The notes beneath the pieces were generated by a model. That model searched no databases. It worked only from the letters and a program-made list of their open reading frames with translations, and had not been told where the DNA came from. Position numbers and translations under genes: made by a program. 51,365 bases of DNA, from NCBI GenBank assembly GCA_947628155.1, contig CANQYQ010000002.1:1-51365 (forward strand), read 5' to 3'. How positions within the stretch are numbered: position 1 is the first letter of the stretch; each line of letters opens with the position of its first letter. Positions 31,788 through 47,250 of the stretch are shown piece after piece. The DNA is from an uncultured Clostridia bacterium (GTDB lineage Bacteria > Bacillota > Clostridia > UBA1381).

Positions 31788-32093
31788 TTAAATCTGACGG
31801 CAGCCGTCATCGCAGATCCGCGCCTCGTGTAAAACCGTTCCGTACACGCGCGCCGATATTCGCGGAGCGTAAAGGCCCGGATGTCCGCCGGAGATATCTT
31901 TTAAATCGTCCTCGTCTATTTCTCCTTCGTTTAACGCCGCGTACATATACATGTCCAATTCATCCCTATTCAGGTTTACGCCAAAATCCTTAAAAACCGC
32001 GATAATATCGTCCCGGCTCCGAGCCTTTTCAAGCTGTGATAAAAATTCCTCGTCGTTATCCAGCTCCGTTAACCTTTTTTTCTTATCGTCCAT
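31788..32093 (-). CDS. Nif11-type RiPP precursor peptide
   Basis: The 101-residue peptide has a Nif11-like leader with EEFLSQLEKARSRDDIIAVF, a GVNLNRDELDMYMY segment and the end EIDEDDLKDISGG. The double glycine at residues 69-70 is the usual cut site for C39 peptidase transporters. The core would be 31 residues, beginning HPGLYAPRISARVYG and containing one CDDGC motif (Cys94, Cys98). It lies near two NHLM-type ABC exporters. No modifying enzyme is encoded in the window. An ECF-type promoter directly precedes it. The ATG at 32093 is chosen over a TTG at 32108 because GAGGGA lies between. Confidence 0.85.
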   Translation of the reverse strand: MDDKKKRLTELDNDEEFLSQLEKARSRDDIIAVFKDFGVNLNRDELDMYMYAALNEGEIDEDDLKDISGGHPGLYAPRISARVYGTVLHEARICDDGCRQI

Positions 32094-32111: not shown

Positions 32112-32139
32112 TATACACCGTTATGTGACAAATGTTACA
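32112..32139 (-). promoter_or_regulatory. ECF-type promoter of the precursor peptide gene
   Basis: On the minus strand TGTAACA (32133-32139), 15 bases, and TGTATA (32112-32117). The -35 element overlaps the stop codon of the preceding small gene. Confidence 0.75.
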
Positions 32140-32359
32140 TAATCCGATCGTCTTTTTTTAAATACTCCGGCAAATCGATCTCCTTGACCGCCGCCGACGC
32201 GAGCTCGAGTTCCTCCTCCGTAAGCTCACGGCTGAGCGGGCAGCACGCCTCAATCACATCGTCGAGCGCGTCTGAGCCGCCTTTTGCGCTCAGTTCCTGC
32301 ATCTGCGCTATACGTCTTAGCGCCGAAGCAATGTTTGGATAGTCGTTTATATTGATCAT
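32135..32359 (-). CDS. Small protein of the peptide operon, unknown
   Basis: The 74-residue product starts MININDYPNIASALRRIAQ and contains SRELTEEELELASAA, which resembles the end of Nif11/NHLP leaders but without a double glycine. A GGAG site precedes the ATG at 32359; the earlier ATG at 32374 has none. It has its own ECF-type promoter and lies directly upstream of the Nif11 precursor. It could be a second peptide, an immunity factor or a regulator. Nothing else is recognised in it. Confidence 0.6.
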   Translation of the reverse strand: MININDYPNIASALRRIAQMQELSAKGGSDALDDVIEACCPLSRELTEEELELASAAVKEIDLPEYLKKDDRIM

Positions 32360-32392
32360 ATTAATTATCTCCATATTGTATTTTCATTGATT

Positions 32393-32420
32393 TATACACA
32401 CATCCGACCAAAGTGTTACA
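32393..32420 (-). promoter_or_regulatory. ECF-type promoter of the small gene and peptide operon
   Basis: On the minus strand TGTAACA (32414-32420), 15 bases, and TGTATA (32393-32398), followed by AATC. It lies in the 78-bp gap behind the ABC transporter gene. Confidence 0.75.
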
Positions 32421-32437
32421 AAAAAATTCTGTTTATT

Positions 32438-34972
32438 TTACGCGAGCTGTCTGACCGCGAGTTCATAAAACAATCCGCGCCGCTCCATCAGCTCGTCATA
32501 GCTGCCCTCCTCCATGATCGCTCCTTTATCAAGAACTATCACGCGGTCGCAGTTTATGACGGCGCTTAACCGATGCGCCATAACGACCCTCGTGGCTTTA
32601 AGCTTATCAAGGCTTTCGCGAACCGTCGCCTGCGCCGCGTTATCCAACGAGCTTGTCGCCTCGTCGAAAAATAATATTCCCGGCTTCCCGGCAATGGCTC
32701 GTGCAATCAGGATTCGCTGCCGCTGTCCGCCGGATATTGCCGAGCCTGATTCGCTGACAACGGTGTGCAGTCCCATGGGCATCATGGCGATATCGTCACC
32801 GAGCCCCGCGGCGGACACCGCCGCCTTTACATGCTCCATATCCGGCGCCGCTACGGCGATGTTGTCATATATACTGCCCGATATAAGGCGGCCGTCCTGC
32901 AAAACCACGCCTATTCTTTTTCGCAGCTCACATTTATCAAGCCGTTCTATATCCTTGCGGTCGTAATATATTTTACCCTTCCACGGCGTCTCGAAGCCCA
33001 GAAGGAGCTTTAAAAGCGTCGATTTCCCGCACCCCGACGGGCCGACGATCCCCACGTATTCGCCTTCCTTTATATGTAAGGACAGATTATTCACAACGGG
33101 GCTGCCCTCGTCATAACCGAAGGTTACATTGCTCACTTCAATATCACCGCTCAAATCCCCCGGCGGCTCCGAGGTACCGTCCCGCTCCGGAACATTCTCG
33201 AATATGGGTTTGATTCTATCGTAAATCGGCTTTTGCCGGCATATTCCCGGCACGATACCGATAATCTGCCGAACCGAGCCGAAAAACGCGCCGAAGGCCG
33301 ATAAAAACGCGATAAATGAACCCATGGAAATGCTTGACCCGTTATGAACAGCACAATAATACAGCGTCAGCAAAATCAGTCCGGCCGCAGCGTCCGATAC
33401 GGTTTTTGCCAGTATGCTTATTTTCCCGCTCCGCATATTAAGCCCGCATTCACGCGTGTATGATTTAAGATATTCATACAGCGTTCTGTCCTCGATACCC
33501 GCGGCGCGTATTTTTGATATGCCGTTTATAAATTGGTACACTGTCGATTGGGTTTTTGCATTCAGCTCCATGCTCTCCTTTGAATATTTTATAACACGCA
33601 GAGACAATGATATAAATATAACGGCATATATCGCCGTCATTATAACCGCGGCCGCCGTCAGCTCAGCCGAATACCAAAGCATCGCGGACAGATACACTGC
33701 CGATAATATCCCCGACATCACGGCTGTGAAGAGAGCGCTTAACGCGCTGTTCATAAATCCGCTTACTCCCATTACGCGCCGCGCGATGTCCGCGCTGTCA
33801 TATTTCCCGAAAAAGCTGTCCGGCAAATTGAATAGCCGGCTGTACGCGGCGCTTTGCGCGTCATATTGTATATGACCGCGCATTCTAAATTCCGACAGGC
33901 TTTTGACTATCAAAAACGCGGCGTTCCCTATCAGACATGCCGATACCGCGCAGCATGCGCCAATCAGCGGGACTGACGTTCCCAGCGGTATATAAACGTC
34001 GTACAGTCTTTGATTAAGTATGGGTATCAGCAGCCCGATAACAGAGCAGACAAGCGTCAGTATGATCATCCGGAAAAAGTCCCGCGCGCGTATACCGCGC
34101 GCCGCGAATGCCGCGATGTCCTTTAGACCCATCCTTTTTTCGGCAAACGGGCGGTATATCATATATGCCTCGGACGATATTTTCATCGCCCTTTCCCTTG
34201 TCAGCACCGTCCTTTTGCCCGTAACGGGATCGTAAATATAATACCGCGACGCGTTTCTCGGCACACAGGAATACGGCTCTCCGGTTTTTTCGTCAAATAC
34301 GATAAGCGGTCCGGAATCCGTTTTGTACCAATCCTTTTGCAGCGTGACCCTTCTGCACGCGAAACGCGATAATCCCGCGATATCCGCAACCGTGGGCTTT
34401 TTCCCGCAGCACGCGGTTACCTTCTCAATCGGGGCAATACGTATATGTGCTTTTTCGCACGCATATTCCACCGCGCCGTACAACGGATCGCTCCCGGAGC
34501 GCGCCTCGCTCCGGCGTTTATTGAACAAATTATAAATTATATTCAGGCTGTCTTCATACGCCTGCTTCCGTTCGCGGCTTGTTTTATGTATAAAGCCGTC
34601 CTCTGTGACAATGTTTAATTTATAGTATTCCGCAAGACCATCCTCATAGCCTTCGTTTTCATAGCCGCGCAGATTAACCCGAGCGGCAAATTCGTCCTTT
34701 AACCCGTCCGATGCACTGTTCGGGTTTATCCGAATAACCGCCGTATCCAAGGCGGCAAGCCCGAATGCCCACTGTTGTCCGTCATAATCGGTATATTTAA
34801 AGGACGGCAGCGTTTCACCCCGCGCCGCTTCGTACAGAAACACCCTTCTCCCGTTCCCGCCGTCGGTAACCGGCACGATATAAACAAGGACCGCTCCGTC
34901 CTCGACCGTATATGTGTCCGAGGGATTTTCGCTTATATACATCGTTCCGCCGTGCAAATATTTTCTGTCCAT
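32438..34972 (-). CDS. NHLM-type ABC exporter, second subunit (no peptidase)
   Basis: This 844-residue protein has an N-terminal domain of about 300 residues without C39 peptidase motifs, then six membrane helices and an ATPase domain. The ATPase has GPSGCGKSTLLKL (Walker A), SGGQRQRILIARAI (signature) and GILFFDEATSSLD (Walker B). The long N-terminal part is typical of the NHLM bacteriocin system ATP-binding protein (TIGR03797 type). It should form a heterodimer or work with the C39-containing exporter encoded upstream. The start at 34972 is preceded by AGGAG at seven bases. It is the last gene of the sigma operon. Confidence 0.88.
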   Translation of the reverse strand: MDRKYLHGGTMYISENPSDTYTVEDGAVLVYIVPVTDGGNGRRVFLYEAARGETLPSFKYTDYDGQQWAFGLAALDTAVIRINPNSASDGLKDEFAARVNLRGYENEGYEDGLAEYYKLNIVTEDGFIHKTSRERKQAYEDSLNIIYNLFNKRRSEARSGSDPLYGAVEYACEKAHIRIAPIEKVTACCGKKPTVADIAGLSRFACRRVTLQKDWYKTDSGPLIVFDEKTGEPYSCVPRNASRYYIYDPVTGKRTVLTRERAMKISSEAYMIYRPFAEKRMGLKDIAAFAARGIRARDFFRMIILTLVCSVIGLLIPILNQRLYDVYIPLGTSVPLIGACCAVSACLIGNAAFLIVKSLSEFRMRGHIQYDAQSAAYSRLFNLPDSFFGKYDSADIARRVMGVSGFMNSALSALFTAVMSGILSAVYLSAMLWYSAELTAAAVIMTAIYAVIFISLSLRVIKYSKESMELNAKTQSTVYQFINGISKIRAAGIEDRTLYEYLKSYTRECGLNMRSGKISILAKTVSDAAAGLILLTLYYCAVHNGSSISMGSFIAFLSAFGAFFGSVRQIIGIVPGICRQKPIYDRIKPIFENVPERDGTSEPPGDLSGDIEVSNVTFGYDEGSPVVNNLSLHIKEGEYVGIVGPSGCGKSTLLKLLLGFETPWKGKIYYDRKDIERLDKCELRKRIGVVLQDGRLISGSIYDNIAVAAPDMEHVKAAVSAAGLGDDIAMMPMGLHTVVSESGSAISGGQRQRILIARAIAGKPGILFFDEATSSLDNAAQATVRESLDKLKATRVVMAHRLSAVINCDRVIVLDKGAIMEEGSYDELMERRGLFYELAVRQLA

Positions 34973-34982
34973 ATACTGTCTC

Positions 34983-37127
34983 CTATATATTTTTTATCAG
35001 CGCCCTATACTCGCCCTCGCTCCCGGCCAGCTCATCATGCGTACCGCGCTGTACTATTTTACCGTGACGCATAACAATTATCCTGTCGCAGCCGCGTATC
35101 GCGCTCAATCTGTGCGCAATGACAACGCATGTACAGCCGCGCCGCTTTATATTATCGAGGATCTTCTTCTCGACTATCGGATCGAGCGCGCTCGTGGCTT
35201 CATCCATAATCAATATCGACGGATTTGTCGTCAGTGCACGCGCGATCTCAAGGCGCTGCCTTTGTCCGCTCGAAAAATTTGACGCGCCCTCGGCGAGAAC
35301 GGAATCGTACGCTCCCGGCCGCGCGGTGATTATATCGTGGATACAAGCGTCCTTGGCGGCGCGAATCATGTCGGCTTCGAGTATGCCGGTGTTCCACATC
35401 GTAAGATTATCCCGGATCGTGCCCGAAAACAAAGTGATATCCTGACTTACCGTGGAAACGCTCGCGCAGATCACACTTTTTGGCAGCTTATTTAACGGAA
35501 CTCCGTCCATAAGTATTTCCCCATCCCATGGCTGATACAGGCCGCCGATAAGCTTCGCGACCGTGGATTTGCCGCATCCTGACGCTCCGACAATGGCTAT
35601 TGAGCCGCCGCTGTTCACTTTAAAGCTGAAATCGTCTATCAGCGGTGCGGCAAGGCCGCTGTAGCCGAACGATACGTCTCGCAGCTCCACATCACCGGAC
35701 AGCTTCGTTTGCATGGGGATTTTTCCGCTGTCGTCAAACTTTTTATCCGTAGGATAATTCATTATGTCCTCGGCTCTGCTCATGTCGGCTTTTAGCATCT
35801 GGATTTTATTAACAAATCCTACCATGGAATTTATCGGCCCCACAAATGAAACGAATAATAAGCCGAACGCGGCAAGCATGCCCGCCGTCATATCTCCGCG
35901 CATTACAAACAATCCGCCCGCCATGAGCACAAGAACGGCGGATACGGATTCGGTTACCGCCGGAATTATATTCATAAGAACCTGCAGACGATTTAATTTC
36001 TGCTCGATCGCTATATTTTCGGCATAGCTTCCGAGAATGCGGCCGGCATATTCATTTTCAAACCCCGACGCCTTCAGCGTGTCGATAATATTAATTCCCG
36101 CGTAAACAACGCCCGCCGTTTTGCCGCGGTCCTGCTGTAATTTTATGGTGATATCCGAGATCGCCCCGGTGCCGATACGGACGGCCACTGCACCGACCGC
36201 CGCGTTTATAACGCATATCGCGGCCAGCGCCGGATTATACGCCGTCATTAGAATAAGATAAAATACGGCCGTTATAATGCCGAGCGCGCCCGATGCGAGC
36301 TCGCCCGCGAGAAAATCGCCTATATTGTTATTGCCGTCAACCCTATTCGAAAGATCACCCGCATATCTTTGGTCGAAAAACTCGATGGGAAGCCGAAATA
36401 AATGGAATAAAAATTTATGCGCCGAGACAAGGATCATCTTATTCCGCAGCCGCTGCAAAATGACGTTTCCGTAAAACGCGAGTACGCCGTTTAAAATAAT
36501 GACCGACAGCATAACCACGGCGAAGCACGGAAACCATCCGATATTCGCGCCCGCAAATATATCGTCTAAGAAAATCCGCAGCAGAATCGGTATCATTATT
36601 CCCGGTATGACAAGCAAAAGCCCAAAGCATATAAGCTTTGAAACCGTGGGAAATTGCCCGCTCAATCTGCCGCGTATTTGGCGGTAAAATGAATTTTCCG
36701 TTTTTTCCTTTATAAATTTGTCCGTAGGCGCAAATGTCAGCACAACGCCGGTAAAGCCTTTGTCCAATTCCTCGATCGTAATCCTCCGCCGTCCCACGGC
36801 GGGATCGTTTAAATATACATACCCGCGCTTTATGCCCTCATAAACCACAAAATGATTGAAATTCCAATGTATGATACACGGCGGCTTAAGCTCAAGCAAT
36901 CCCTTTAATTCCTTTCGGTAGCCGTGGCATTCGAGTCCGTGTTTCTTGGCCGCGCGCATGATATTACCGGCGCTGCACCCGTCTCTTGATACTCCGGTCT
37001 CCACCCTCATCCGCTCTAACGCCATGCTTTTTCCGTAATACGAAAATATAATCGCCAGAGACGCCGCGCCGCATTCCGCCGCCTCCATCTGATATACCGC
37101 GGGCGTTTTAACAAAATTACTTTTCAT
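34983..37127 (-). CDS. NHLM-type peptidase-containing ABC exporter
   Basis: The 714-residue membrane protein has an N-terminal C39 peptidase with the catalytic Cys19 (QMEAAECGAAS), His92 (NFNHFVVYEG) and Asp108 (YLNDP). Six membrane helices follow, then an ATPase domain with GASGCGKSTVAKL (Walker A), NFSSGQRQRLEIARAL (signature) and ILIMDEATSALD. It cuts double-glycine leaders and exports the core, matching the GG-ending Nif11 leader nearby (TIGR03796 type). The catalytic residues are all intact. It starts right at the HlyD-like gene's stop. Confidence 0.93.
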   Translation of the reverse strand: MKSNFVKTPAVYQMEAAECGAASLAIIFSYYGKSMALERMRVETGVSRDGCSAGNIMRAAKKHGLECHGYRKELKGLLELKPPCIIHWNFNHFVVYEGIKRGYVYLNDPAVGRRRITIEELDKGFTGVVLTFAPTDKFIKEKTENSFYRQIRGRLSGQFPTVSKLICFGLLLVIPGIMIPILLRIFLDDIFAGANIGWFPCFAVVMLSVIILNGVLAFYGNVILQRLRNKMILVSAHKFLFHLFRLPIEFFDQRYAGDLSNRVDGNNNIGDFLAGELASGALGIITAVFYLILMTAYNPALAAICVINAAVGAVAVRIGTGAISDITIKLQQDRGKTAGVVYAGINIIDTLKASGFENEYAGRILGSYAENIAIEQKLNRLQVLMNIIPAVTESVSAVLVLMAGGLFVMRGDMTAGMLAAFGLLFVSFVGPINSMVGFVNKIQMLKADMSRAEDIMNYPTDKKFDDSGKIPMQTKLSGDVELRDVSFGYSGLAAPLIDDFSFKVNSGGSIAIVGASGCGKSTVAKLIGGLYQPWDGEILMDGVPLNKLPKSVICASVSTVSQDITLFSGTIRDNLTMWNTGILEADMIRAAKDACIHDIITARPGAYDSVLAEGASNFSSGQRQRLEIARALTTNPSILIMDEATSALDPIVEKKILDNIKRRGCTCVVIAHRLSAIRGCDRIIVMRHGKIVQRGTHDELAGSEGEYRALIKNI

Positions 37128-37901
37128 CTACTCCGCCTCCGTATCAAAAACAGGCAATAATTTGGATATCGGCGCGGATTCGCCCGTTATCACTCTTACG
37201 TCCGTTAATGTTCCGTCGCTCATATCCGCGTCTAAAGCAAGTACGACAGACACAGCCGGGACTGGAATATACCCTGCCAAACCGCTGTTATCCCCGATAA
37301 GCGCCTCGATGTCGGCCTGTGACGTTACATAATCGTCTACCCCGACAACCTCCGCCTCTATGCGTCCGTATTTTTTCGCGTCAGGCAAAACAGGCGTGAC
37401 TGCCGCGCGCATTCCGGTCTGTATTTTTTTCCCGGATCCAATAGGCAAAAAGGCTATTATAACCTTTCCGTCTTCCGTATCGGGAGAAAGCTTCGCAACC
37501 GCGTCATATTTGTCGACAGCGTCTCCGGGCGCGGCGCATACTGTCGTTACCGCACCGCTTTGCGAAGAGTAAATCCTCTCCTCTTCCCCGCCCCGCGTTC
37601 TTATCACTCCTATAACGCCGCCGCTTTCTACCGTTTCACCGACGGTTACGCCGCACTCCGCTAACACCCCGGCAATCGGAGAACGCGCGGTTAAAGAATC
37701 ATGTCCGTTTACAATAATTCCTTTGAACTCGACAGTCTCAATAAGACTACCGGTAAACGACCATATTATAAAGGCGGCAATTATAATTGCCGCGCCGATT
37801 ATGATCAGCCATGACGCGGGCGGCGTTACGGCGATCGTCCTATCCAGCTGCTCCGGCGACGATAGCTTCTCCAGAGCTGATTTCCTGAAAATACTGCTCA
37901 T
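37128..37901 (-). CDS. HlyD-like membrane fusion protein of the NHLM exporter
   Basis: The 257-residue protein has one membrane helix near residues 33-50 (WLIIIGAAIIIAAFIIWSFT) and then biotinyl-lipoyl-like beta segments (SPIAGVLAECGVTVGETVES). It is the periplasmic-adaptor equivalent (NHLM secretion protein, TIGR03794 type) that works with the two ABC exporters in Gram-positive bacteria. Its start overlaps the sigma gene's stop by one base (TAATG), and its stop abuts the C39 exporter gene, so the four genes form one operon. Confidence 0.85.
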   Translation of the reverse strand: MSSIFRKSALEKLSSPEQLDRTIAVTPPASWLIIIGAAIIIAAFIIWSFTGSLIETVEFKGIIVNGHDSLTARSPIAGVLAECGVTVGETVESGGVIGVIRTRGGEEERIYSSQSGAVTTVCAAPGDAVDKYDAVAKLSPDTEDGKVIIAFLPIGSGKKIQTGMRAAVTPVLPDAKKYGRIEAEVVGVDDYVTSQADIEALIGDNSGLAGYIPVPAVSVVLALDADMSDGTLTDVRVITGESAPISKLLPVFDTEAE

Positions 37902-38431
37902 TATATATAATCCTCCGGTTTAAATCCCCTATCGGCAAAATATTCGGACAGCTTTTGCAGCGCCCTCATAGAAATAACGCGGACGTTGCCCGCCGTAGTG
38001 TTCAGCTCGGACGCTATTTCGCTCGTTGACATATTATAAAAAAACTTCAAAACGATCGCTCTTCTGTATCTCTCGGATAACGTGTTAAGAGCGTCGGCGA
38101 TAGTATTTCGGCATTCCTGCAGAGACGCCGCGTCAAGCATTATGGAGTCCGCAGAGTCCGACGCAAGCTCCTCATTGTCTATATCGACCGTTACCTTCCT
38201 GTCTCTGTAATAATTCTTGAGCCTGTTCTCGGTTATCTTAAACAGCCACGTCTTTACCGAGGCCTTGCTGCTGTCGTAAGAAGAATAGCATTTGAACGCT
38301 TTGAAAAATATATCGCTTGTTATATCCTCCGCGGTACTGCTGTTATTAATTTTTTTGAATACATATCTGTAAACCGGGGTATAGTAATCTCTATACACCT
38401 GTTCAAAATCTGATTTTTCCGCTGATACCAT
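37901..38431 (-). CDS. ECF-family RNA polymerase sigma factor
   Basis: The 176-residue protein has region 2 (FEQVYRDYYTPVYRYVFKKI; AEDITSDIFFKAF; TWLFKITENRLKNYYR) and region 4 (LSERYRRAIVLKFFYNMSTS; EIASELNTTAGNVRVISMRA). It lacks region 1, as ECF factors do. It directly precedes the exporter genes. No anti-sigma factor with a membrane domain is adjacent. The ATG at 38431 is chosen because conserved sequence begins there; the spacing to GGGAGAGG is long, so the start is less certain. It is the likely reader of the TGTAACA-N15-TGTAT promoters. Confidence 0.9.
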   Translation of the reverse strand: MVSAEKSDFEQVYRDYYTPVYRYVFKKINNSSTAEDITSDIFFKAFKCYSSYDSSKASVKTWLFKITENRLKNYYRDRKVTVDIDNEELASDSADSIMLDAASLQECRNTIADALNTLSERYRRAIVLKFFYNMSTSEIASELNTTAGNVRVISMRALQKLSEYFADRGFKPEDYI

Positions 38432-38537
38432 AGAAATTATTATTCCTCTCCCTGTACATATCCGTCTTAAAACGCGGCGCGAAAGCATATGAATACGTGT
38501 AAAGTAATTTCGCGGCGCGTAACAGATACAATTATAT

Positions 38538-38575
38538 CATATTTTACCATATTTCTACAAAAAATACAATGTTAC
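38538..38575 (-). promoter_or_regulatory. Possible sigma-A promoter of the sigma/exporter operon
   Basis: On the minus strand TTGTAT and TAAAAT are separated by 17 bases, with an alternative TATAAT box just behind. The ECF-type motif was not found here. The rest of 38432-38709 is AT-rich and shows no gene. Confidence 0.4.
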
Positions 38576-38709
38576 GCCGTCTGTTTTAATTGTTGAGAAT
38601 GTAGAAATTTTGAACGGTAATTTGGGCATTTTGCGTAAAACACATGTATCGCCGGTATAATCTTATATCCCGGACAAATAATCCGGCCCGCCGGATCTAT
38701 CGCGCGGTA

Positions 38710-38741
38710 CAGAAAAAGTCCGCGTATAAAAGCGGACTTTT
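38710..38741 (-). terminator. Terminator behind the macrodomain gene
   Basis: GAAAAAGTCCGC pairs perfectly with GCGGACTTTTTC around eight bases, beginning two bases after the stop of the macrodomain gene. T-rich ends on both sides make it usable in both directions. Confidence 0.8.
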
Positions 38742-38742
38742 T

Positions 38743-39795
38743 CTATACTCCGATCAACGGCTGGTCGAATTGGAACAGAACCTCGTTTATCTCAAAAATA
38801 TTATAGTTTTTCCTTTCGATAAAATATTCTATGATTATATCAAATTTATTGCTGTGCGTGAGCGAGTACCCGGCGCGGCCGACTAAATCACGCGCGCCGT
38901 CCCAGTCAAGCTTAAGCGCGACCGCGAACGCCACCGCGGTCACCTTGCTCGGCTTATATTCGCGGTTATTACGGATCTTTGAAAACAGCTTCCTATCGAT
39001 ATTCGCCCGTTTGTACACCTGCGCGTCGGTCATACCGCTTTCGTCTATCAATTTTAATAACCGTTCCGAAAACGACGCGTCCATTTCCTTTATCAGGTCG
39101 TCGATATTCCTCGCGCTTTGAAGTGTTCCCGCGCGTCTGAACACGCCCGGCTTTTTAGGCTGAGCAAGCTTCGGCGCGGCAAGCTTTGGCGGCTCGGCAT
39201 AATACGCCGGCGGCGGCGAAAATGTAGTATCAACGGCCGAATCCAAGCAGGCGCGGCGGGAATGATCCGCGAGCCTTTTATCTATAAACTCCGCAACGTC
39301 AGAGAAAAGCCCGCCGCCTCCGCCAAATCCACTCTTATCGTAGATTACAAGATATACGTCCATATCGTTGTTTTCGAGGAAATCGGAAACGGCTCTTACC
39401 GCGATATGGAGCGCTTCCATTTTCGGATAGCCGAAGACGCCCGAGGATATAAGCGGGAACGCGATCGATCTTACGCGCTTGAGCTTAGCCAGGTTCAAGC
39501 TTGATCGATAGCATGAATAAAGCAGCTCCGCCTCGTTATTGCGCCCATCGGTATAAACCGGGCCGGGGGTGTGGATTATATATTTAGCTTTTAAATTATA
39601 TCCCTTTGTTATAACGGCTCTTCCCGTATCGCAGTGTCCTATCCTCCGGCACGCGGCTCCAAGCTTATCATATCCCGCCGCCGCGAATATAGCTCCGCAT
39701 ACTCCGCCGCCCGGCGCTAAGGATGTATTGGCGGCGTTGACAACAGCGTCGGTCTCGGTTTTTGTTATATCGCCGCATATTATTTTAAAAGGCAT
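38743..39795 (-). CDS. Macrodomain protein with C-terminal helical DNA-binding-like domain
   Basis: The 350-residue protein starts with an Appr-1''-p/O-acetyl-ADP-ribose macrodomain (MPFKIICGDITKTETDAVVN, NTSLAPGGGVCGAIFAAAG, SIAFPLISSGVFGYPKMEAL), which binds ADP-ribose or related nucleotides. A proline-rich linker follows. Residues about 240-350 form a helical domain (DAQVYKRANIDRKLFSKIRN) like the XRE-type domain seen in many Clostridia macro proteins. It lies alone between the sigma operon and the TIR operon. Since TIR enzymes make ADP-ribose products, a reader or eraser role is possible, but this is inference. Confidence 0.85.
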   Translation of the reverse strand: MPFKIICGDITKTETDAVVNAANTSLAPGGGVCGAIFAAAGYDKLGAACRRIGHCDTGRAVITKGYNLKAKYIIHTPGPVYTDGRNNEAELLYSCYRSSLNLAKLKRVRSIAFPLISSGVFGYPKMEALHIAVRAVSDFLENNDMDVYLVIYDKSGFGGGGGLFSDVAEFIDKRLADHSRRACLDSAVDTTFSPPPAYYAEPPKLAAPKLAQPKKPGVFRRAGTLQSARNIDDLIKEMDASFSERLLKLIDESGMTDAQVYKRANIDRKLFSKIRNNREYKPSKVTAVAFAVALKLDWDGARDLVGRAGYSLTHSNKFDIIIEYFIERKNYNIFEINEVLFQFDQPLIGV

Positions 39796-39875
39796 CGTTC
39801 TGCCCTCCCATAATGAATCTATATAGATTATATCATAACCGCGCCGCTTATATCAAGCCGCAAAGGAGGCGCGGG

Positions 39876-42674
39876 TCATCTTTCCTTATACCGATACACG
39901 GTACGTTCCCGGACTTCAAGATCGCTTCCCGACGGATACGTATCGCTGTACGCGCTCCATGATCCGTATGAGCGGTATATGTACTTTGTTTTCACGGGGC
40001 GCGAACGGTACTGGAACAGCACTCCGCCGCTCGTCTCCACCTCGTACCAGCGATAGCACGTATTGGAGCAGCGGTATTTTTGGCCGTTTACGTAATACGC
40101 GTAATCCGCCGTGGTGTCCTCCGAATACGGCAGCGGACTGTCAAACCAGCCCAAATCATGATATACGGCCTCATCGCAGAATTTATAGTTTCCCGTCCTG
40201 TATTTTGTCGCGTCGTTACCGGTATTGCCGGTGCAATAATGAGCGTAATGATATCGCTTCGGCGTCGAGGTTATCCTCGACTCTACCTCGCGCGTGCTCG
40301 ATTCTTTTATCGGCTCATCCTGCCATTGACTCCACGAACCGGTGGTAGTTATTTCGTCTATAAGCTCTAAGGAGCTGTTTCTTGTCTCGCTCTCTATTTC
40401 CCGCCAACTTCGGCTGCTGTACTGAGTTTTTGACTCGATGATATAATCGTTGTCGTTTACGTATGACGGCAGTGATTGCGTCCACTCCGACCAGCTCGCC
40501 GGTTTCTGCGCGGGTCTTTGCGTAGGTTTCTGCGCGGGTCTTTGCGTGGGCGAGTTATTGCCGGGGCGTACCGCGTCTGTTTTGGCATTATATATCATCA
40601 TGGCCGAGTCTATGCGCTTTAACGATACGCCGATCGATGAATTTGTGACATCGTCAAGGACCCCGTTCTCCTCGGCTATCGCCATATATCCGTACGGGTA
40701 TTGCTCATCGCCCGACGCTAATCCCGCGACGACGGTCAGAATTTTGGCCGCCTGCTCCGTAGTTATATTTCCGTCGGGATCAAATTTATTGCCGCCTATG
40801 CCGTTAATCGCTCCCGCCTTTACGCACGCGTTTATATATTCGCTCGCCCAATGACTCTTCGCGTCGTCAAACGTGCATTTCTGCGTTGTGTCATAGCCTT
40901 GCATACGGCACATCATCGCGGCAAATTCCGCGCGCGTTATCGTTCTGTCCGGACCGAGCGTGGAATCGCCGTAGCCGGTCATTATCTTCTCCTTCACAAC
41001 GTAATTGACCGCGGCCTTCTGCACTGAGCTGAGTCCCGACGTATCCGAAAAATCATCGGCCTTCTCGGGCGGAGCGTTGCCGGTGATCGTATATTCACGG
41101 CTCATTTGCGCGCCGTTATTGCCCTTGGCGACGACCTTGAGATCATGCGTTCCGCGTATGCCGCTTAAATCGGCCTTATACGGCACCTCCGACGCTGTCA
41201 CTGTAAGCGCGCCGTCGATATAATATTCCACGGTTATGCTGTCCGAGCCGTACAGATGCGGATATGTATAAAGCTGCGCGCTTCCTTCGGTAGATATGGC
41301 GCCGTCGGCCTTTTTGAAAAACTGCTCCGCGCTCGCGTCCCAGTCACCATGTATGAACCACGGCGCTTTTACCGCCTCGTTATACGCGGACTGCAGGGCG
41401 CTTGAGCCGTCAAGCGCGTATTTGTTTACCTCGTTTGACATGGATTGGTTAAAATAGGCCATCAGCTTCACCTGCGGATATACCATCGGGATAAACGCGA
41501 ACATCCTGCGGAGCTGCTGTGCCGCCCATTCGTCATGGTTTTGGTTAATGCTTCCGGTAGTTCTGTACGCGCTTCCGCATTCGGAAATCATTATCGGCTT
41601 CCTGTCACCATAGGTATCGACGATCTCCTTTATCATTAGCACGGGGTCGGAGTTATAACCCGATTTAAAGCATACCTCATTGAACTTTTCGGCGTCGCTC
41701 CACGTTTTGCCCTCAAAATATTTGTTTGCATAGCAATTTACGCCGACCCAATCGACATATTCGTCGCCGGGATAAAAGTCGTGCGCGCTGTACGGCCATG
41801 ACGCGCTTTTCCATTTCGAGGTGTGCGCCACGCTCCATACTATGGATATGTTTGACAAGCCGCGCATCTTATCGGCAACGGTTCGGAACACCGATTTAAA
41901 CTCGGACGGCGAGCATGTATTTACCCATATGTTGACCTCCGCGCCTATGCGCAGATATATCGGCACGCCGCTATAGCCTTTAAGAAGCGAGTACAGGCTT
42001 GAAAGATACGAATCCGAGGATTTGACGCTCCTGACCGTTGACGCTTCGTCTGTAAAATTCAGCGCCAGCTCCACGGCCTTATTCTGACTCTTAGCCTTAT
42101 TTAATACGACCCGCGCCCAGTCAAATTCACCCGTGTTTCCGTAGCTTAGGTAAAGCAGCACCATTGATTCGTCAGATCCCGAATGCTCGCTTACCTGTCC
42201 GTAAAGAACGCCGCGCGGTTCGTTTTTCTCGCCGTATGACTTCTGTACGGCGGTCGTGCTTTGGTAAACATCGAGAGACGGCGTTAGCTGCTTTACATAA
42301 TTCTCGGCTATGATGACTCCGTCATCCCAGCCGAGCTGTCTTCCGTACGGGATATACATATTAAAATATTTTACGGCGTTTTCGTAATCTCCCGTGAACG
42401 CGTACGCGAACGCCACGTCATAGGCACGTGAGCCGATAATGTTACGAGTCTGCTCGTTATCCGGTTCGCCGGACACAAGGTCGATTATCTGCACTCCGTA
42501 TTTTATCGTTCCCGCGTAATCGCCGCCCGCGACCGCGGCGTCATAGTTATTGTTAATGCTCCAGTATGAGTGGGGCAGCTCGTACGCGGCCGCGCACGGA
42601 ACAAGCGATACGGCGAAAACCGCCGCGCATATTATAGATAATATTTTTTTCATATGGATCCTTTTGTTTGTCAT
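39876..42674 (-). CDS. GH26-like glycoside hydrolase with SLH domains
   Basis: The 932-residue protein starts with a signal peptide (residues about 8-30) and TPR-like helices, then a GH26-type barrel. The likely acid/base Glu246 lies in LRIGAEVNIW and the nucleophile Glu365 in IMISECGSAY; both are intact. GH26 enzymes cut beta-mannans or related glucans. Three SLH segments follow near residues 560-700 (ITRAEFAAMMCRM, ITTEQAAKILTVV), then a Pro/Gln linker and a Cys/Tyr-rich tail. It abuts the TIR gene (TAAATG) and is part of that operon, which is unusual for a surface enzyme. Confidence 0.82.
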   Translation of the reverse strand: MTNKRIHMKKILSIICAAVFAVSLVPCAAAYELPHSYWSINNNYDAAVAGGDYAGTIKYGVQIIDLVSGEPDNEQTRNIIGSRAYDVAFAYAFTGDYENAVKYFNMYIPYGRQLGWDDGVIIAENYVKQLTPSLDVYQSTTAVQKSYGEKNEPRGVLYGQVSEHSGSDESMVLLYLSYGNTGEFDWARVVLNKAKSQNKAVELALNFTDEASTVRSVKSSDSYLSSLYSLLKGYSGVPIYLRIGAEVNIWVNTCSPSEFKSVFRTVADKMRGLSNISIVWSVAHTSKWKSASWPYSAHDFYPGDEYVDWVGVNCYANKYFEGKTWSDAEKFNEVCFKSGYNSDPVLMIKEIVDTYGDRKPIMISECGSAYRTTGSINQNHDEWAAQQLRRMFAFIPMVYPQVKLMAYFNQSMSNEVNKYALDGSSALQSAYNEAVKAPWFIHGDWDASAEQFFKKADGAISTEGSAQLYTYPHLYGSDSITVEYYIDGALTVTASEVPYKADLSGIRGTHDLKVVAKGNNGAQMSREYTITGNAPPEKADDFSDTSGLSSVQKAAVNYVVKEKIMTGYGDSTLGPDRTITRAEFAAMMCRMQGYDTTQKCTFDDAKSHWASEYINACVKAGAINGIGGNKFDPDGNITTEQAAKILTVVAGLASGDEQYPYGYMAIAEENGVLDDVTNSSIGVSLKRIDSAMMIYNAKTDAVRPGNNSPTQRPAQKPTQRPAQKPASWSEWTQSLPSYVNDNDYIIESKTQYSSRSWREIESETRNSSLELIDEITTTGSWSQWQDEPIKESSTREVESRITSTPKRYHYAHYCTGNTGNDATKYRTGNYKFCDEAVYHDLGWFDSPLPYSEDTTADYAYYVNGQKYRCSNTCYRWYEVETSGGVLFQYRSRPVKTKYIYRSYGSWSAYSDTYPSGSDLEVRERTVYRYKER

Positions 42675-45600
42675 TTATCTCCCTCCTTTGACTGCCGCTT
42701 CGGCTCTCTCTATCAGCTGTTCGGATGTGTAGTACGGATAAATCAGGCAGTCGGGCGCGTATATCGGCGAAAACGCCAATTCCTGACGCTGCTCGTTAAA
42801 CGCTTCATACCCGTATCCGAACCGATAAATAATATCCAGCGTATCCACATCGATAAACCATGTGTAAGCGCCGCGCGTTATTATGATATCGTTTTCCTTT
42901 ATATTAAAATCAAGTGTCACGTCCGTTGTTATGTCGTTCGCTTCGTCTCTTTCAAGACGCGTACTGTTTAACAGACTTCCGTCCGCGGCGTCATACCGAT
43001 AAATGGTATTGTTTGCCGAATACAATATTACGCTGTTATCGGGCGCGAACCGTATTTGTTTAACGGCGGCGGCGCCGGGCGCCGAAAAGCTGTTTATAAG
43101 CGTTCCGTCCGCCGTATTGAAGCAGTGCACCGCGCCGTCGCGGACTACGGCAAGCATGGACGAATCAAACGATATATCCATATTCTCCGCGCGATCCACA
43201 TATCCCGTCACGCTCTCATTTGATTGATACACATTTGTAATTTTCCCCGATACCGTATTAACTATGGCGGCGTTATACCGGTCTTCGGAATAATCAGCGC
43301 TTTCAAACGCGATATAAAGTCCGTTCGGGCTGACGCGGCAGCTTTCGGACAACGGATTTATGTCTCCGCCCAAATCTATTTCCCTGAGCGTATCGGTAAT
43401 CACCGCAAAGCCATGATTTATGGTGAAAACCATAGTCCCCTCATTCCGCGTTTCCTTAACGTTTGGGCGGAAAAATGACCCGTATCCGCTTAAATCATAC
43501 GTTTTCCCCATCTCGCCGGTTTGTGTGTCATACAGCGTGACGCTGTCATTGCCTATCGCGGCAATATTATCCCGGAAAAACCGATATTCCCCGTCGTCTT
43601 GCCGCGGCAGCTCATACATTACGCTGTCCGCCGCCAAATCGTAAACCAACGTACCGCCGCTATCGGTAAGCAGCGCATAGCGCCCGTCACGGCTGAATTT
43701 CATATCGCGTATCCATCTGTTGTCACCCGCTTCAATTACGCGGTAATTTGAGTCATATATTCTGTTATACAGATACAGACAGCTTTTATTTGTTCCGATA
43801 ACGGCATAGCAGTCGTCATTTCCCGACAGGAAGGAATATGACGCGTCAATATTTAATTGACAGCTTATCCATATATCGTCGGCCGGACTGCCCGAATATA
43901 CGCTCCCGTCCTCGCAAAGGATCTCCACCGTACGCGTTTGCTCCGCGAAATACACATTTTTAATGATCGAACCCGTCACGGTGTTTTCGCAGGACACGGA
44001 ACCGTCGTCATAGTTTAAATACACCATTTGACGCGAATCCTTAGCGGCAATAACGTTATAAATTTCGTCACCCTTTTTCATGCTCATCAACGTTATACCG
44101 CCCTCCCACGGGGAATAATCCTCAAGCTTGACGCTATACGCCGCAGTTCCGTCGCCGGCCGTCCTTGTAACATAATATGAAACGCCGTTATCATAATTGT
44201 ACTCGAGCAGTACAAAGCTCCCGTCCTCGGCGTATACGACGTCCTGCACATAATTTCCCGTGGAATAGAGCGCGGCAGACTCCCGCGTTTTTGAGTCTAT
44301 TGTGAATATCCTCCGTTCATAAGAATCATCCGCCGGATCCAATCTGCTTATGACCGCGCACAGCCTTCCGCCGTTTGTCAGCTTCGGCGGCGACCATATC
44401 GTTTCAATATAGTAATTTTCCGGCAGCGCATGGTCGGTCAAATACATATGCCCGCCCGTTCGGCAGTCTATGAAATCGAATGCCCCCTCGTAGCTGCGGT
44501 GCGCGCACATAATCGAGCCGTCCGGCGAAAATACCGCGAATGCCGCGACGGAGTCCGAATCAAAATACCCGCGCTCCCATATCACGTCTCCCGTATCAAT
44601 ATCTATGCCGCGGCATGAATAATACAGCGCGGCGGTTATACGTCCGTTATCGGTAAACGCGGCGTTTAATATACCCGGCAGATTCTCCTCATACAGCACG
44701 CCGCCCGAATCAACGTCCCACACGTACAATGTATCGGTATCGTCCCATGCGAGAATACGTGTCCCGTCGGGACTGTACATACATTTCTTTATTTCACCCG
44801 CCGCCTCAAGCCTCCGGTCAAGTCTTGTCAGACCGCGGTCCTCATACGCGTATGTCGCGTCCGCAAGGACCTTCATTGACGACGGGAGCAGCCGCTCGGG
44901 TTCCTCCTCATACGGGCGCACGGACAGCGCGGTCTCTATCGCGCCGATCCTGTCGTTATCGGCGAGCAGCGTTTCGGCGTTCCGCGCCGCCATATCCGCG
45001 CCCGCGATACTCAGCTCGCGGTTCTTCTCGCTTACCATAGCGAGATTGTCCTCCGCCGCGCGGCGCTGTTCCTCGGCATAGATTGAATTTTGCTCGGCTA
45101 TTTCCCGCTGCTCCTCCGCATATTCCAAATTCTGCTCCGCAATCGCCTTTTGACGGGTCGCCTCATAAAGGTTACTCTCCGCCGCCGCCCTTTGGATATC
45201 CGCTTCGGCAAGGTTATCGTTGGCCTCCTTTGTCTTTTCGGCTAAGTCGGCGTTGCTTTTCGTTAAAGATGTATTGGCGTCGTCTAATTCGCTGTTCGCT
45301 TCCTGCAGCTCTTCGTTGCTTTTATCAAGACGCGTATTTGTTTCCCGAAGCTTATCATTTGTTTGCTTCAGAGTGCTGTTTGCGTCGTCGAGATCCTTAT
45401 TGCTTTTCGACAGCGCGGCATTCGCGTTATCAAGCTTATTATTTGTTTCCGTTAGTGTTGAATTGGCGCTGTCGAGCTTGCCGTTCGTCTCCGTCAAGGC
45501 GGAATTGGTATTGTCCAATTCGGTATTCGCGGCGTCAAGCTCCGAATTTGCGTCTTCAAGCTTGGTGTTTGCCTCGTTAAGCTCGTCGTTTGTCGATTCC

Positions 45601-46340
45601 AAATTCCCGTTGCTTATATCAAGCTCCTTTGTCCTGAGCTCCAGCTCCTCATTCTTTGCCTGGAGCTGATTCCTCTGGTCGCTTATTTTCATAAGCATGA
45701 CGCTGCTGTAAACCCCGAAAAGCGTAACTCCTATGAAGGCGGCCGCCGCTCCGGCCGCAAGCCTTTGCGTCCTGCGGCGGCGGTTACGGTTGTATAGATC
45801 ATCATAGCCGCAGCCGAGAAGCGGCGCGGCGATCCGCAAAAACTCAATGTTCAGCTTTTTGAGCATACCGCTTTGGGTTTTGGATATGATATTCGCCGCC
45901 ATCGGCTCTACGGCAGTTTCGCGCGTAACAGCCGTGCCGTCGGGCAGCTTTAGCGTTTCTATATTCGTGCGCAGCTCACTCGGGAGTACCTCGCCCGGTT
46001 CGCCGCTTATTATAAGCGTTATTATATTGTCGTTTGTACCGCTGTGCAGCTCCTTGAACCGCGCGATCTCCTCTCTGCACCACCGCGATTTGACCGTCTC
46101 ACCGGAGCATATGACTATCAAATATTCCGAATTTTCCAGCGCGGCTCTTATCTCGGCGCTTAAATCACCGCTTGCCTGCAGCTCCGTTTCATCGCGGAAA
46201 ATGCGCCAGTGCTCCTTCGCGCGGCACATCTCCCTCGGCGGCTTATAGCCCTCAAGCATTTTCTGTAATTTCTCCGCGATTTTTTTGTCCGGATTTACGT
46301 GACGATAGCTTATAAACGCTTTATACGCGTATTCCTTCAT
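42675..46340 (-). CDS. TIR - transmembrane - Asn-heptad coiled coil - WD40 protein
   Basis: The 1221-residue protein has four parts. Residues 1-150 form a TIR domain (AFISYRHVN, WRIFRDETEL, LIVICSGETV, SRWCREEIARF); Glu91 sits at the place of the NADase glutamate (W-x-x-x-E). Residues about 193-217 form one membrane helix. Residues 244-369 are 18 consecutive heptads N-x-x-L-x-x-(A/S/T/K), followed by a second coiled-coil repeat with EAxxQRxxAE. Residues about 500-1221 are a beta-propeller with WD40-like repeats (CMYSPDGTRILAWDDTDTLY). The topology would put TIR and propeller on opposite sides of the membrane, or both inside if the helix does not span. It is third in an operon with RsbW- and RsbV-like genes. 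Confidence 0.85.
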   Translation of the reverse strand: MKEYAYKAFISYRHVNPDKKIAEKLQKMLEGYKPPREMCRAKEHWRIFRDETELQASGDLSAEIRAALENSEYLIVICSGETVKSRWCREEIARFKELHSGTNDNIITLIISGEPGEVLPSELRTNIETLKLPDGTAVTRETAVEPMAANIISKTQSGMLKKLNIEFLRIAAPLLGCGYDDLYNRNRRRRTQRLAAGAAAAFIGVTLFGVYSSVMLMKISDQRNQLQAKNEELELRTKELDISNGNLESTNDELNEANTKLEDANSELDAANTELDNTNSALTETNGKLDSANSTLTETNNKLDNANAALSKSNKDLDDANSTLKQTNDKLRETNTRLDKSNEELQEANSELDDANTSLTKSNADLAEKTKEANDNLAEADIQRAAAESNLYEATRQKAIAEQNLEYAEEQREIAEQNSIYAEEQRRAAEDNLAMVSEKNRELSIAGADMAARNAETLLADNDRIGAIETALSVRPYEEEPERLLPSSMKVLADATYAYEDRGLTRLDRRLEAAGEIKKCMYSPDGTRILAWDDTDTLYVWDVDSGGVLYEENLPGILNAAFTDNGRITAALYYSCRGIDIDTGDVIWERGYFDSDSVAAFAVFSPDGSIMCAHRSYEGAFDFIDCRTGGHMYLTDHALPENYYIETIWSPPKLTNGGRLCAVISRLDPADDSYERRIFTIDSKTRESAALYSTGNYVQDVVYAEDGSFVLLEYNYDNGVSYYVTRTAGDGTAAYSVKLEDYSPWEGGITLMSMKKGDEIYNVIAAKDSRQMVYLNYDDGSVSCENTVTGSIIKNVYFAEQTRTVEILCEDGSVYSGSPADDIWISCQLNIDASYSFLSGNDDCYAVIGTNKSCLYLYNRIYDSNYRVIEAGDNRWIRDMKFSRDGRYALLTDSGGTLVYDLAADSVMYELPRQDDGEYRFFRDNIAAIGNDSVTLYDTQTGEMGKTYDLSGYGSFFRPNVKETRNEGTMVFTINHGFAVITDTLREIDLGGDINPLSESCRVSPNGLYIAFESADYSEDRYNAAIVNTVSGKITNVYQSNESVTGYVDRAENMDISFDSSMLAVVRDGAVHCFNTADGTLINSFSAPGAAAVKQIRFAPDNSVILYSANNTIYRYDAADGSLLNSTRLERDEANDITTDVTLDFNIKENDIIITRGAYTWFIDVDTLDIIYRFGYGYEAFNEQRQELAFSPIYAPDCLIYPYYTSEQLIERAEAAVKGGR
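45234..45611 (-). repeat. 18 coding heptad repeats (21-bp period) in the TIR gene
   Basis: Each 21-bp unit encodes Asn-x-x-Leu-x-x-(Ala/Ser/Thr/Lys). The amino acids are conserved much better than the bases, so the pattern is under protein-level selection and is not a fresh DNA expansion. Confidence 0.9.
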
Positions 46341-46360
46341 GGAAACTCACCTGCCTCCGA

Positions 46361-46717
46361 TCATTCTTTAACATTCAAAATATTGATAAATCCCGTGCTT
46401 TCAAAAACGCCGCGAACCTCATCGTTTATATTTACGATGATCATATCCGTTCCGTCTTCGGCGTCGTCTACATATTGCTGCGCCGTAAGCAATACCCTGA
46501 GTCCCGCGCTGGCAATATACGCCACATCCTTAAAATCCAATACCAGCACAGACGCTTCCTTTAAATGCCTCATTATTATATCCGACAGCGCGGCGGACGT
46601 CCGAGTCTTTATCGAACCGGCTATGACGATCCTTGTCTGTGGATCGTCCTTTATAATTTTCGCCGAAAGCAGCGTTGTGTTATTATCGGGATCGGTCACC
46701 TTTATTATGTTTTCCAT
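46361..46717 (-). CDS. STAS-domain anti-sigma factor antagonist (RsbV-like)
   Basis: The 118-residue protein has a STAS fold (RIVIAGSIKTRTSAALSDII, VLVLDFKDVAYIASAGLRVL). The phosphorylation serine is Ser at IASAGLR, the site at which an RsbW-like kinase acts and an RsbU-like phosphatase reverses. Unphosphorylated antagonists bind the kinase and free its client. It lies between the kinase gene (four bases upstream) and the TIR gene (20 bases downstream). Confidence 0.9.
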   Translation of the reverse strand: MENIIKVTDPDNNTTLLSAKIIKDDPQTRIVIAGSIKTRTSAALSDIIMRHLKEASVLVLDFKDVAYIASAGLRVLLTAQQYVDDAEDGTDMIIVNINDEVRGVFESTGFINILNVKE

Positions 46718-46721
46718 CGCA

Positions 46722-47132
46722 CTAATCTCCTTTGTTAAATATTTTTATCAGCGTCAGTCTGTTTTCGCCTCCGGTATATTCATACGTCATATCGTCCGTT
46801 TTCAAACGCGCTATGAAAATTCCGAGTCCGCCCGACGTTCGTTCGCGTCCCGTTCCGGACATATCCGGAACGGCCGCTTTAAGAGGATCAAACGGTTTTC
46901 CGCTGTCGCAAAACGTTACCGAAACGGTATTGCCATAAATATCGAGCCGCGTACGTACAACCCCTTTTTTCGGGGCGTAGGCGTAGCTTGATATATTAAC
47001 GTATATTTCCTCTAACGCGACGATAAATGAAATTATTTCCTTTTCGTTAAATCCGCGGCCGCGAAGAATAATTATGATTTGCTCCGACAGCCTGTCCCAT
47101 TCGCTCAGCGACGCAAGTCCTATCCATTCCAC
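46722..47132 (-). CDS. Anti-sigma factor kinase-like protein (RsbW/SpoIIAB type)
   Basis: The 136-residue protein is a HATPase_c_2 kinase-like domain with FIVALEEIYVNISSYAYAP (N box), VTFCDSGKPFDP (G1) and SGGLGIFIARL (G2). Such proteins phosphorylate a STAS partner and hold a sigma factor or other client. The GTG at 47132 follows GGGGAG by eight bases; an overlapping ATG is out of frame and meets a stop. It is the first gene of the operon and has an ECF-type promoter. Confidence 0.9.
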   Translation of the reverse strand: MEWIGLASLSEWDRLSEQIIIILRGRGFNEKEIISFIVALEEIYVNISSYAYAPKKGVVRTRLDIYGNTVSVTFCDSGKPFDPLKAAVPDMSGTGRERTSGGLGIFIARLKTDDMTYEYTGGENRLTLIKIFNKGD

Positions 47133-47171
47133 ATTCCGTTCTCCCCATCAATATAATTATCTCCAAATACT

Positions 47172-47199
47172 GATACACACGACTTCACGTTTTGTTACA
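47172..47199 (-). promoter_or_regulatory. ECF-type promoter of the RsbW/TIR operon
   Basis: On the minus strand TGTAACA (47193-47199), 15 bases, and TGTATC (47172-47177). The -35 heptamer lies in TTTTGTTACAAAA, itself a near-perfect palindrome. Confidence 0.75.
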
Positions 47200-47222
47200 A
47201 AAGATATGTTTTAAAAAAAATT

Positions 47223-47250
47223 TGTAACAAAAATTATTTTAAGGTGTATG
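47223..47250 (+). promoter_or_regulatory. ECF-type promoter of the Rossmann-RyR gene
   Basis: TGTAACA (47223-47229), 15 bases, and TGTATG (47245-47250). The start would fall near 47257, just before the AGGAGG site. It is divergent to the promoter at 47172-47199, with the two -35 elements facing each other. Confidence 0.75.

Follow-up and report, generated by a model that had tools for sequence, protein, structure and literature searches.

The export locus and its neighboring genes

The window analyzed here (51,365 nucleotides; contig CANQYQ010000002.1) derives from an uncultured gut-type Clostridia bacterium and carries a Nif11/NHLP peptide export (NHLM) locus (Table 1). Both ABC subunits of the exporter exceed the NCBIfam cutoffs for TIGR03796 and TIGR03797. 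The HlyD-like adaptor is shorter and a clear homolog, yet it scores below the curated TIGR03794 level. The gene for an extracytoplasmic function (ECF) sigma factor directly precedes hlyD, with a one-base overlap, and is the only ECF sigma gene found in the window, as an earlier note on this DNA had claimed. Group 3 sigma factors are encoded elsewhere in the genome, with none in the locus. A search of the cluster proteins returned no match to an anti-sigma family. Searches of viral contigs gave nothing beyond a weak sigma fragment, and plasmid records contained no close exporter.

TABLE 1 Genes and candidate promoters in the window
Feature	Position	Strand	Context or evidence
SpoIIE-type PP2C phosphatase	30868..31737	-	PF07228; 74% identity to G095; alignment
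Nif11-type precursor, ISGG processing site	31788..32093	-	TIGR03798, 24.6 bits (under cutoff of 32.3)
P2 candidate promoter	32113..32139	-	Before Nif11-type precursor gene (ATG 32093); orthologous G095 site L045:7566
Leader-like small protein, 74 aa	32135..32359	-	ELTEEELELASAA where Nif11 leaders carry ..SGG
P1 candidate promoter	32394..32420	-	Before leader-like small protein gene (ATG 32359); orthologous G095 site L045:7285
Permease/ATPase, NHLM exporter subunit 2	32438..34972	-	TIGR03797, 763 bits (cutoff 709); 67% identity to G095
C39 peptidase/permease/ATPase, NHLM exporter subunit 1	34983..37127	-	TIGR03796, 955 bits (cutoff 853); 74% identity to G095
HlyD-like adaptor, NHLM export	37128..37901	-	TIGR03794, 113 bits (under cutoff of 156); 55% identity to G095
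ECF sigma factor, 176 aa from start conserved in G095	37901..38431	-	Pfam sigma70_r2/r4, TIGR02937, alignment, tree
Macro-domain protein	38743..39795	-	Possibly last gene of TIR operon
Secreted GH26-SLH protein	39876..42674	-	Downstream in TIR operon
TIR-transmembrane-coiled coil-beta-propeller protein, receptor-like	42675..46340	-	PF13676, PF13360; 43% identity to G095
RsbV-like STAS protein	46361..46717	-	PF01740; 59% identity to G095
RsbW-like HATPase, putative anti-sigma kinase	46722..47132	-	PF13581; 65% identity to G095
P3 candidate promoter	47173..47199	-	Before RsbW-RsbV-TIR operon (RsbW GTG 47132); orthologous site G095:C35:14873
P4 candidate promoter	47223..47249	+	Before Rossmann/RyR gene (ATG 47277); orthologous site G095:C35:14924
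Rossmann-like protein, weak C-terminal RyR match	47277..48671	+	PF02026, 21 bits (under cutoff); 69% identity to G095

The Nif11-type precursor shares an operon with the PP2C phosphatase, which retains its metal-binding Asp residues. A paralog of this precursor in a related genome (G095, described below) scores 35.2 bits against TIGR03798, over the cutoff of 32.3. With the RsbW-like kinase and the RsbV-like STAS antagonist, which keeps the phosphoacceptor Ser position (ASAGL), the window has all three components of a SigB-type partner switch. The TIR protein has a hydrophobic segment at about residues 200 to 219. In G095, a subtilase occupies the slot of the GH26-SLH protein, and the macro-domain protein is not conserved at the locus. 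A structure prediction for the RyR protein (pLDDT 35) was too weak for use.

Four copies of a rare promoter-like motif

The earlier note had reported a TGTAACA-N15-TGTAT dyad at four sites, each directly before a gene. All four were recovered, with coordinates differing by at most 1 base, and every one precedes a gene. Because one further base is common to the four sites, we write the motif as TGTAACA-N14-GTGTAT. At all four, two boxes with rigid N16 spacing stand close upstream of the gene start, and the spacers and flanks are unrelated to one another. P3 and P4 are divergent, and the -35 box of P2 overlaps the stop codon of the leader-like small protein gene, which lies upstream. P1 may also serve the peptide operon by presumed read-through. 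Rfam gave no match in the region.

The likeness to ECF promoters that the note had drawn is also borne out, since TGTAAC-N16-TGTA is compatible with that layout. Bacillus promoters of the SigW/SigM/SigX type (TGAAAC-N16-CGTA) share the AAC in the -35 box, the N16 spacing, and a YGTA-type -10 box, whereas here the boxes read TGTAACA and GTGTAT. The sigma-exporter operon has no copy of the motif before it in either the window or G095; therefore, autoregulation is probably not general. Scanning for sigma-70 promoters on the minus strand before this operon found none; a TATAAT at positions 38531 to 38536 was seen by eye only.

Shuffled versions of the window contained no match, versus four in the real sequence. 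Nor is the motif common genome-wide, a possibility the note had raised as a check: the whole 2.46-Mb assembly (86% complete) has exactly these four copies, all in the window. Allowing one mismatch added two sites, compared with three for a reversed control motif. The expected number of exact copies per genome is ~0.07 from composition and ~0.05 from a scan of 391 Clostridia genomes, and the probability of four or more is ~1e-6 or less. More than one match was found in that scan only in G000. An exact match in G003 lies inside an open reading frame with no sigma match nearby and was set aside as background. The arrangement of the motif is real and not a product of chance.

Conservation with the sigma factor

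G095 is a rabbit-gut Clostridia MAG whose sigma factor is 73% identical to that of the window. It has exactly four exact motif sites, at the starts of the same four orthologous genes. Between the two genomes, the boxes are identical at 52/52 positions, compared with 32/56 for the spacers (Fisher P = 7e-9). In the more distant G031 and G439 (sigma identity of 40 to 43%), the motif adjoins the sigma gene. G031 has one copy, exact, beside it; G439 has one exact site ~215 bp upstream (its single match in the 391-genome scan) and an additional site with one mismatch before a precursor-STAS-TIR operon. The motif is thus present in all three relatives with at least 40% sigma identity, another point on which the note had asked for a comparison, and the motif-bearing sigma factors of all four genomes group in the tree as a single clade (96/95 support). 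Only in the two closest genomes was the motif found together with RsbW, RyR, and the propeller-type TIR protein. In both G095 and G031, integrase or transposase genes lie beside the locus.

Other Clostridia also have NHLM peptide-export loci with their own ECF sigma factor, and in two such lineages private repeated dyads stand at cluster genes or double-glycine precursors. TGTAATA-N15-CGTAYT occurs at three sites each in G306, G408, and G425 and was absent from two congeners in which no exporter was found. TGAGC-N17-CGTATAT occurs at seven sites in G267, some of them before other genes, one a deaminase. The box sequences vary by lineage, and the spacing TGxxxx-N16-YGTA fits all of them. De novo dyad searches at other NHLM loci returned nothing for L080, L122, L127, and L128 and an AT-rich match only for L131.

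A leader-like small protein accompanies NHLM-linked sigma factors

The small protein downstream of P1 belongs to a previously undescribed family found here, for which Pfam and NCBIfam have no entry. With a leave-one-out profile, it was detected in 12/12 NHLM-linked sigma loci examined, and a profile search of 12 NHLM loci lacking a sigma gene did not detect it. The gene adjoins, overlaps, or sits in the regulon of each NHLM-linked sigma gene tested; in G306 and G408, the overlap is with the 3' end of the sigma gene. The C terminus resembles a peptide-export leader in which the cleavage Gly-Gly has become Ala-Ala. The similarity to leaders is weak (HMM E values of 1e-5 to 0.02), and the 74-aa protein itself has no TIGR03798 match at an E value of <1. 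Leader homology was not significant by hhalign (3.5%), and the predicted structure, which is helical, was too weak for use (pLDDT 57).

Discussion

We conclude from the sequence comparisons that the four dyads are very probably ECF-type promoters read by the sigma factor encoded at 37901 to 38431, which would be dedicated to the NHLM export locus and its regulon. Binding of this sigma factor to P1 to P4 is inferred from the co-occurrence of the motif with the sigma clade. Most likely, genes for peptide export, signaling, and a receptor would be switched together through the adjacently encoded sigma factor. The sigma factor would recognize the -35 TGTAACA and -10 GTGTAT boxes and drive three arms: the leader-like small protein, Nif11-type precursor, and PP2C phosphatase; the RsbW-RsbV-TIR receptor-secreted enzyme operon; and the Rossmann/RyR protein. 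We hypothesize that the sigma factor may be kept inactive either by the RsbW/RsbV/PP2C switch, which would belong to the regulon, or by the leader-like protein. Its release, by an outside signal via the TIR-propeller protein or by exporter activity, would produce a feed-forward burst of peptide export.

Partner switching of the SigB/SigF kind resembles the window in having kinase, antagonist, and PP2C phosphatase with key residues, but it targets a group 3 sigma factor, whereas the linked sigma factor here is of the ECF type and a putative target. The regulon could be real without the RsbW-RsbV-PP2C set controlling the ECF sigma factor: the set could be an output, or its target could be a different sigma factor or a protein like the TIR protein; we give this reading a little under even chances. 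The switch genes lie downstream of candidate sigma promoters, PP2C-HATPase-STAS modules occur away from NHLM loci in other genomes, group 3 sigma factors are also present in the genome, and the STAS protein of G439 lacks the phosphoacceptor Ser. SigB-type operons, however, also lie within their own regulon, which counts against it, as do the placement of PP2C in the peptide operon with RsbW/RsbV in the other arm, the single RsbW-like match per genome searched, and the group 3 sigma factors of G095, which are of sporulation type only, alongside sigA and a sigE/K-type factor.

It is also conceivable, if rather doubtful, that the leader-like protein instead of RsbW is the anti-sigma factor or an exporter-coupled checkpoint that docks like a leader and whose Ala-Ala resists cleavage. 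The presence of the family at all 12 sigma loci examined, its nondetection at 12 NHLM loci lacking a sigma gene, and its overlap with the sigma gene in G306 and G408 speak for such a role. The protein has no known anti-sigma fold, however, its similarity to leaders is weak, and it could itself be a signal that is exported after processing at a variant site. In a broader version, which we consider unlikely, this new leader-mimic family would couple a dedicated ECF sigma factor to the state of the NHLM exporter. An uncleavable leader-like tail would bind the sigma factor or the C39 peptidase, and peptide export itself, joined in the window lineage by the TIR receptor and partner-switch input, would time transcription of peptide and receptor genes.

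We find it hard to credit that the motif is the site of another regulator, for instance one recognizing TGTAACA half-sites, with the linked sigma factor incidental. TGTAACA does look like half of a palindrome, and no copy of the motif precedes the sigma operon. Against this stand the two rigidly spaced boxes at -35/-10 distance before gene starts in the N16 ECF layout. Moreover, the boxes differ in other lineages, yet the spacing and the linkage to an NHLM sigma factor persist, and the conserved cluster proteins include no recognized DNA-binding regulator besides the sigma factor. A chance match or a spread repeat element, suggested by the shortness of the motif and the integrase or transposase genes beside two loci, is rejected given ~0.07 copies expected per genome versus four in each of two genomes, the 391-genome scan, the unrelated spacers and flanks, and the conserved orthologous positions.

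Likewise in line with the earlier note, no described system with this set of genes was found in the open-access literature searched. ECF-controlled peptide clusters are already known; the proposed export-coupled control step is possibly new. MibX/MibW (microbisporicin) and the planosporicin pair are ECF sigma systems for ribosomal peptide clusters, with feed-forward control proposed (PMC4973701). There, a membrane anti-sigma gene adjoins the sigma gene, whereas none is recognized in the window cluster, which instead has the small leader-like protein and the RsbW/RsbV/PP2C set. Bordetella BtrS/BtrA, a secretion-system ECF sigma factor whose anti-sigma factor is itself secreted (PMC10732220), is only an analogy for export-coupled control, being from type III secretion and involving proteins unrelated to those of the window. 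The window shares both exporter subunits and a putative leader with a GG site with the NHLM/NHLP system and its Nif11-type precursors (Haft 2010, PMC2887384), a paper in which the words sigma and STAS do not appear; a dedicated sigma factor with private promoters would be an addition to that system. The Bacillus SigW/SigM/SigX factors serve an envelope-stress regulon, whereas the candidate regulon here is that of one peptide-export locus.

Gut Clostridia commonly encode NHLM exporters and Nif11-type peptides, but the literature searched has little on how these are controlled. In the proposed regulon, the receptor-like TIR protein would be coregulated with a partner switch and an RyR protein, and the leader-like small protein offers a concrete candidate for the gating of peptide export. 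A readable private promoter could also reveal the gene membership of each system and its unlinked precursor genes, as in G267, where two of the seven dyad sites precede double-glycine precursors far from the exporter.

Putative promoter sites and the genes behind them

The earlier note had reported four copies of TGTAACA-N15-TGTAT directly before genes and a single ECF sigma gene (37901-38431, minus strand) in the window, and both observations held. Exactly four copies were found, with none in 100 shuffles; a gene start lies downstream of 4/4, and no other sigma was found in the window. One further base is common to all four sites, giving TGTAACA-N14-GTGTAT. Across the entire assembly (2.46 Mb in 238 contigs; completeness, 86%), the exact motif occurs only at these sites, compared with ~0.07 per genome expected from composition (P for four, <1e-6). 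Allowing one mismatch added two sites versus three for the reversed control.

Putative promoter sites in the window
Site	Coordinates	Strand	Downstream gene	Start codon
P1	32394-32420	-	74-aa protein	ATG 32359
P2	32113-32139	-	Precursor	ATG 32093
P3	47173-47199	-	RsbW	GTG 47132
P4	47223-47249	+	Rossmann/RyR	ATG 47277

The sigma product (176 aa, counted from the start conserved in the relative G095) is encoded by a gene that overlaps hlyD by one base. Next come a C39 peptidase/ABC subunit and a second ABC subunit, both exceeding the NCBIfam cut-offs for the Nif11/NHLP peptide export system (NHLM); HlyD scores below its own. P1 and P2 precede genes for the 74-aa protein, a precursor whose Nif11-like leader terminates in ISGG, and a SpoIIE-type PP2C phosphatase. 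Downstream of P3 are RsbW, RsbV, a TIR-transmembrane-propeller protein, and a GH26-SLH protein; downstream of P4 is a Rossmann-like/RyR protein, its RyR match below the cut-off. The TIR-transmembrane-propeller gene (42675-46340; L062:10397-14038 in G095) lies directly 3' of the STAS gene, and the protein has a receptor-like layout, with the TIR domain cytosolic and the beta-propeller likely outside.

By eye, we noted a stem-loop with a U-run at 38710-38742 (AAAAAGTCCGC..GCGGACTTTTT), between a macro-domain gene and the sigma gene. It is absent from the terminator scan results; as a terminator, it would split the macro-domain operon from the sigma operon.

Conservation with the sigma gene

A genome-collection search yielded G095, a rabbit-gut Clostridia MAG (record CANRPW01). 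Its proteins share 73% (sigma), 55% (HlyD), 74 and 67% (ABC subunits), 61% (74-aa protein), 74% (PP2C), 65% (RsbW), 59% (RsbV), 43% (TIR), and 69% (RyR) identity with those of the window; a subtilase occupies the GH26-SLH slot. G095 has exactly four exact sites genome-wide, arranged as in the window: two lie within the peptide operon, and the other two diverge between RsbW and RyR. Between orthologous sites, the boxes are identical at 52/52 positions and the spacers at 32/56 (Fisher P=7e-9), a footprint of selection on the boxes. A phage-type integrase (L045:1-798) and a Mutator transposase (L062:16466-16996) flank the G095 loci, hinting at cluster mobility.

The proposed association of motif and sigma extended to more distant relatives. 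Across the 70 family genomes, the next best sigma (40%) is that of G031, where an exact site follows the sigma gene and immediately precedes the gene for a 74-aa protein homologue. G439, with the best further sigma among 391 genomes of the class (43%, tblastn), has an exact site 5' of the sigma gene, a two-mismatch site before hlyD, and a one-mismatch site behind the exporter. The last precedes genes for a double-glycine precursor, a 74-aa protein homologue, a STAS protein, and a TIR-TM-PASTA-lectin protein, so the combination of sigma, exporter, STAS protein, and TIR receptor recurs in another family. The STAS-TIR order of the window is found again there, with PASTA-lectin as the outside part.

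The class scan found the motif in 20/391 genomes, with more than one copy only in the window's own; because the reversed control matched ~19 genomes, isolated single matches elsewhere are background. In a tree, the four motif-bearing sigmas form one clade (support, 96/95). Judged from sequence, the dyads are private, conserved, and sigma-linked, and we infer that the product of 37901-38431 reads them.

Other exporter-linked sigmas

NHLM exporters are present in 32/391 Clostridia genomes, and eight other loci among those examined have an ECF sigma within ~10 kb. Two lineages have their own repeated dyad with the N16 layout of the window. In genus g112, TGTAATA-N15-CGTAYT occurs at three sites each in G306, G408, and G425, at one in G325, and at none in two congeners. 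These sites precede Nif11 precursors, and a divergent pair precedes radical-SAM/SPASM enzyme and periplasmic-binding protein genes. Divergent TGTAAT-N16-CGTA pairs lie at L114:16330/16395 (between the latter two genes) and L082:12210/12288; the divergent-promoter layout thus recurs with different genes.

The G267 dyad, TGAGC-N17-CGTATAT, has seven sites and no control matches. Four cluster around the exporter and its sigma. The three copies far from the exporter (L194, L196, and L197, at G267:C1:1108454, 3960307, and 5069265) suggest an unlinked peptide regulon: two stand before double-glycine precursors, one of them 17 kb off and one in a distant part of the chromosome, and the third before a deaminase-like gene. 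The g112 and G267 dyads lend independent support to the reading of such dyads as putative promoters of exporter-linked sigmas.

A leader-like small protein family

The first gene after P1 does not encode a precursor. Every NHLM-linked sigma examined has a member of its family (~58-126 aa) alongside it, overlapping it, or in its regulon. When profiles from eleven members were searched for the twelfth (3287 ORFs in all), it was the best ORF of its locus every time (E 1e-4 to 2e-11); candidates were first chosen by eye near sigma, a bias that leaving one out limits and does not remove. No ORF scored better than E=0.005 at any of 12 NHLM loci lacking a sigma close by; exporter contigs L113 and L115, short pieces with sigma or dyad on another contig, were left out.

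The family C terminus, L-[STD]-[DE]-x-[DE]-L-x-x-x-AA, has AA where Nif11 leaders (L-x-x-[VI]-[SA]-G-G) have GG. Profile similarity to those leaders is weak (E 1e-5 to 0.02), and hhalign of the first four proteins gave no significant match. The proteins match no Pfam or NCBIfam family, except that the G306 member has a zinc-ribbon tail recognized by zinc-ribbon models.

Partner switching is a known system. NHLM exporters have been described (PMC2887384), as has a ribosomal peptide cluster under ECF sigma control (MibX/MibW; PMC4973701). In the open-access literature searched, we found no NHLM-dedicated sigma with private promoters, no link between such a sigma and a partner switch, a TIR receptor, and a RyR protein, and no account of the leader-like small protein family.

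Candidate restraints on the sigma

One candidate restraint is the leader-like protein, which is compatible with all sigma loci and has a precedent in BtrA/BtrS, where a secretion system and an anti-sigma are coupled (PMC10732220). The other candidate is RsbW, which would hold the sigma until RsbV, dephosphorylated by the PP2C that the peptide operon encodes, frees it, on the model of the SigB-type RsbW/RsbV/phosphatase switch (PMC7522486). In favor of RsbW, the catalytic positions of RsbW and PP2C and the RsbV Ser are conserved, there is one such RsbW-like match per genome searched, and the group-3 sigmas of G095 are of the sporulation type. Against RsbW, none was found in the stretches examined of the G439 cluster or the other NHLM-sigma loci, and the phospho-acceptor Ser is missing from the G439 STAS protein (L079:16298-16681; IAGMGL), which may therefore work as a constitutive or non-switching antagonist. 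RsbW and the leader-like protein could both act in the window.

Neighboring genes in the distant relatives

The G031 locus (L039:5440-5658 and upstream) looks degraded: after sigma, only the first 73 HlyD residues align, and transposase-like sequence lies upstream. PnuC-type NMN transporter and NadR-like genes (L079:7496-9194) lie just 5' of the G439 sigma, near a TIR protein, possibly reflecting a link to NAD or a coincidence.
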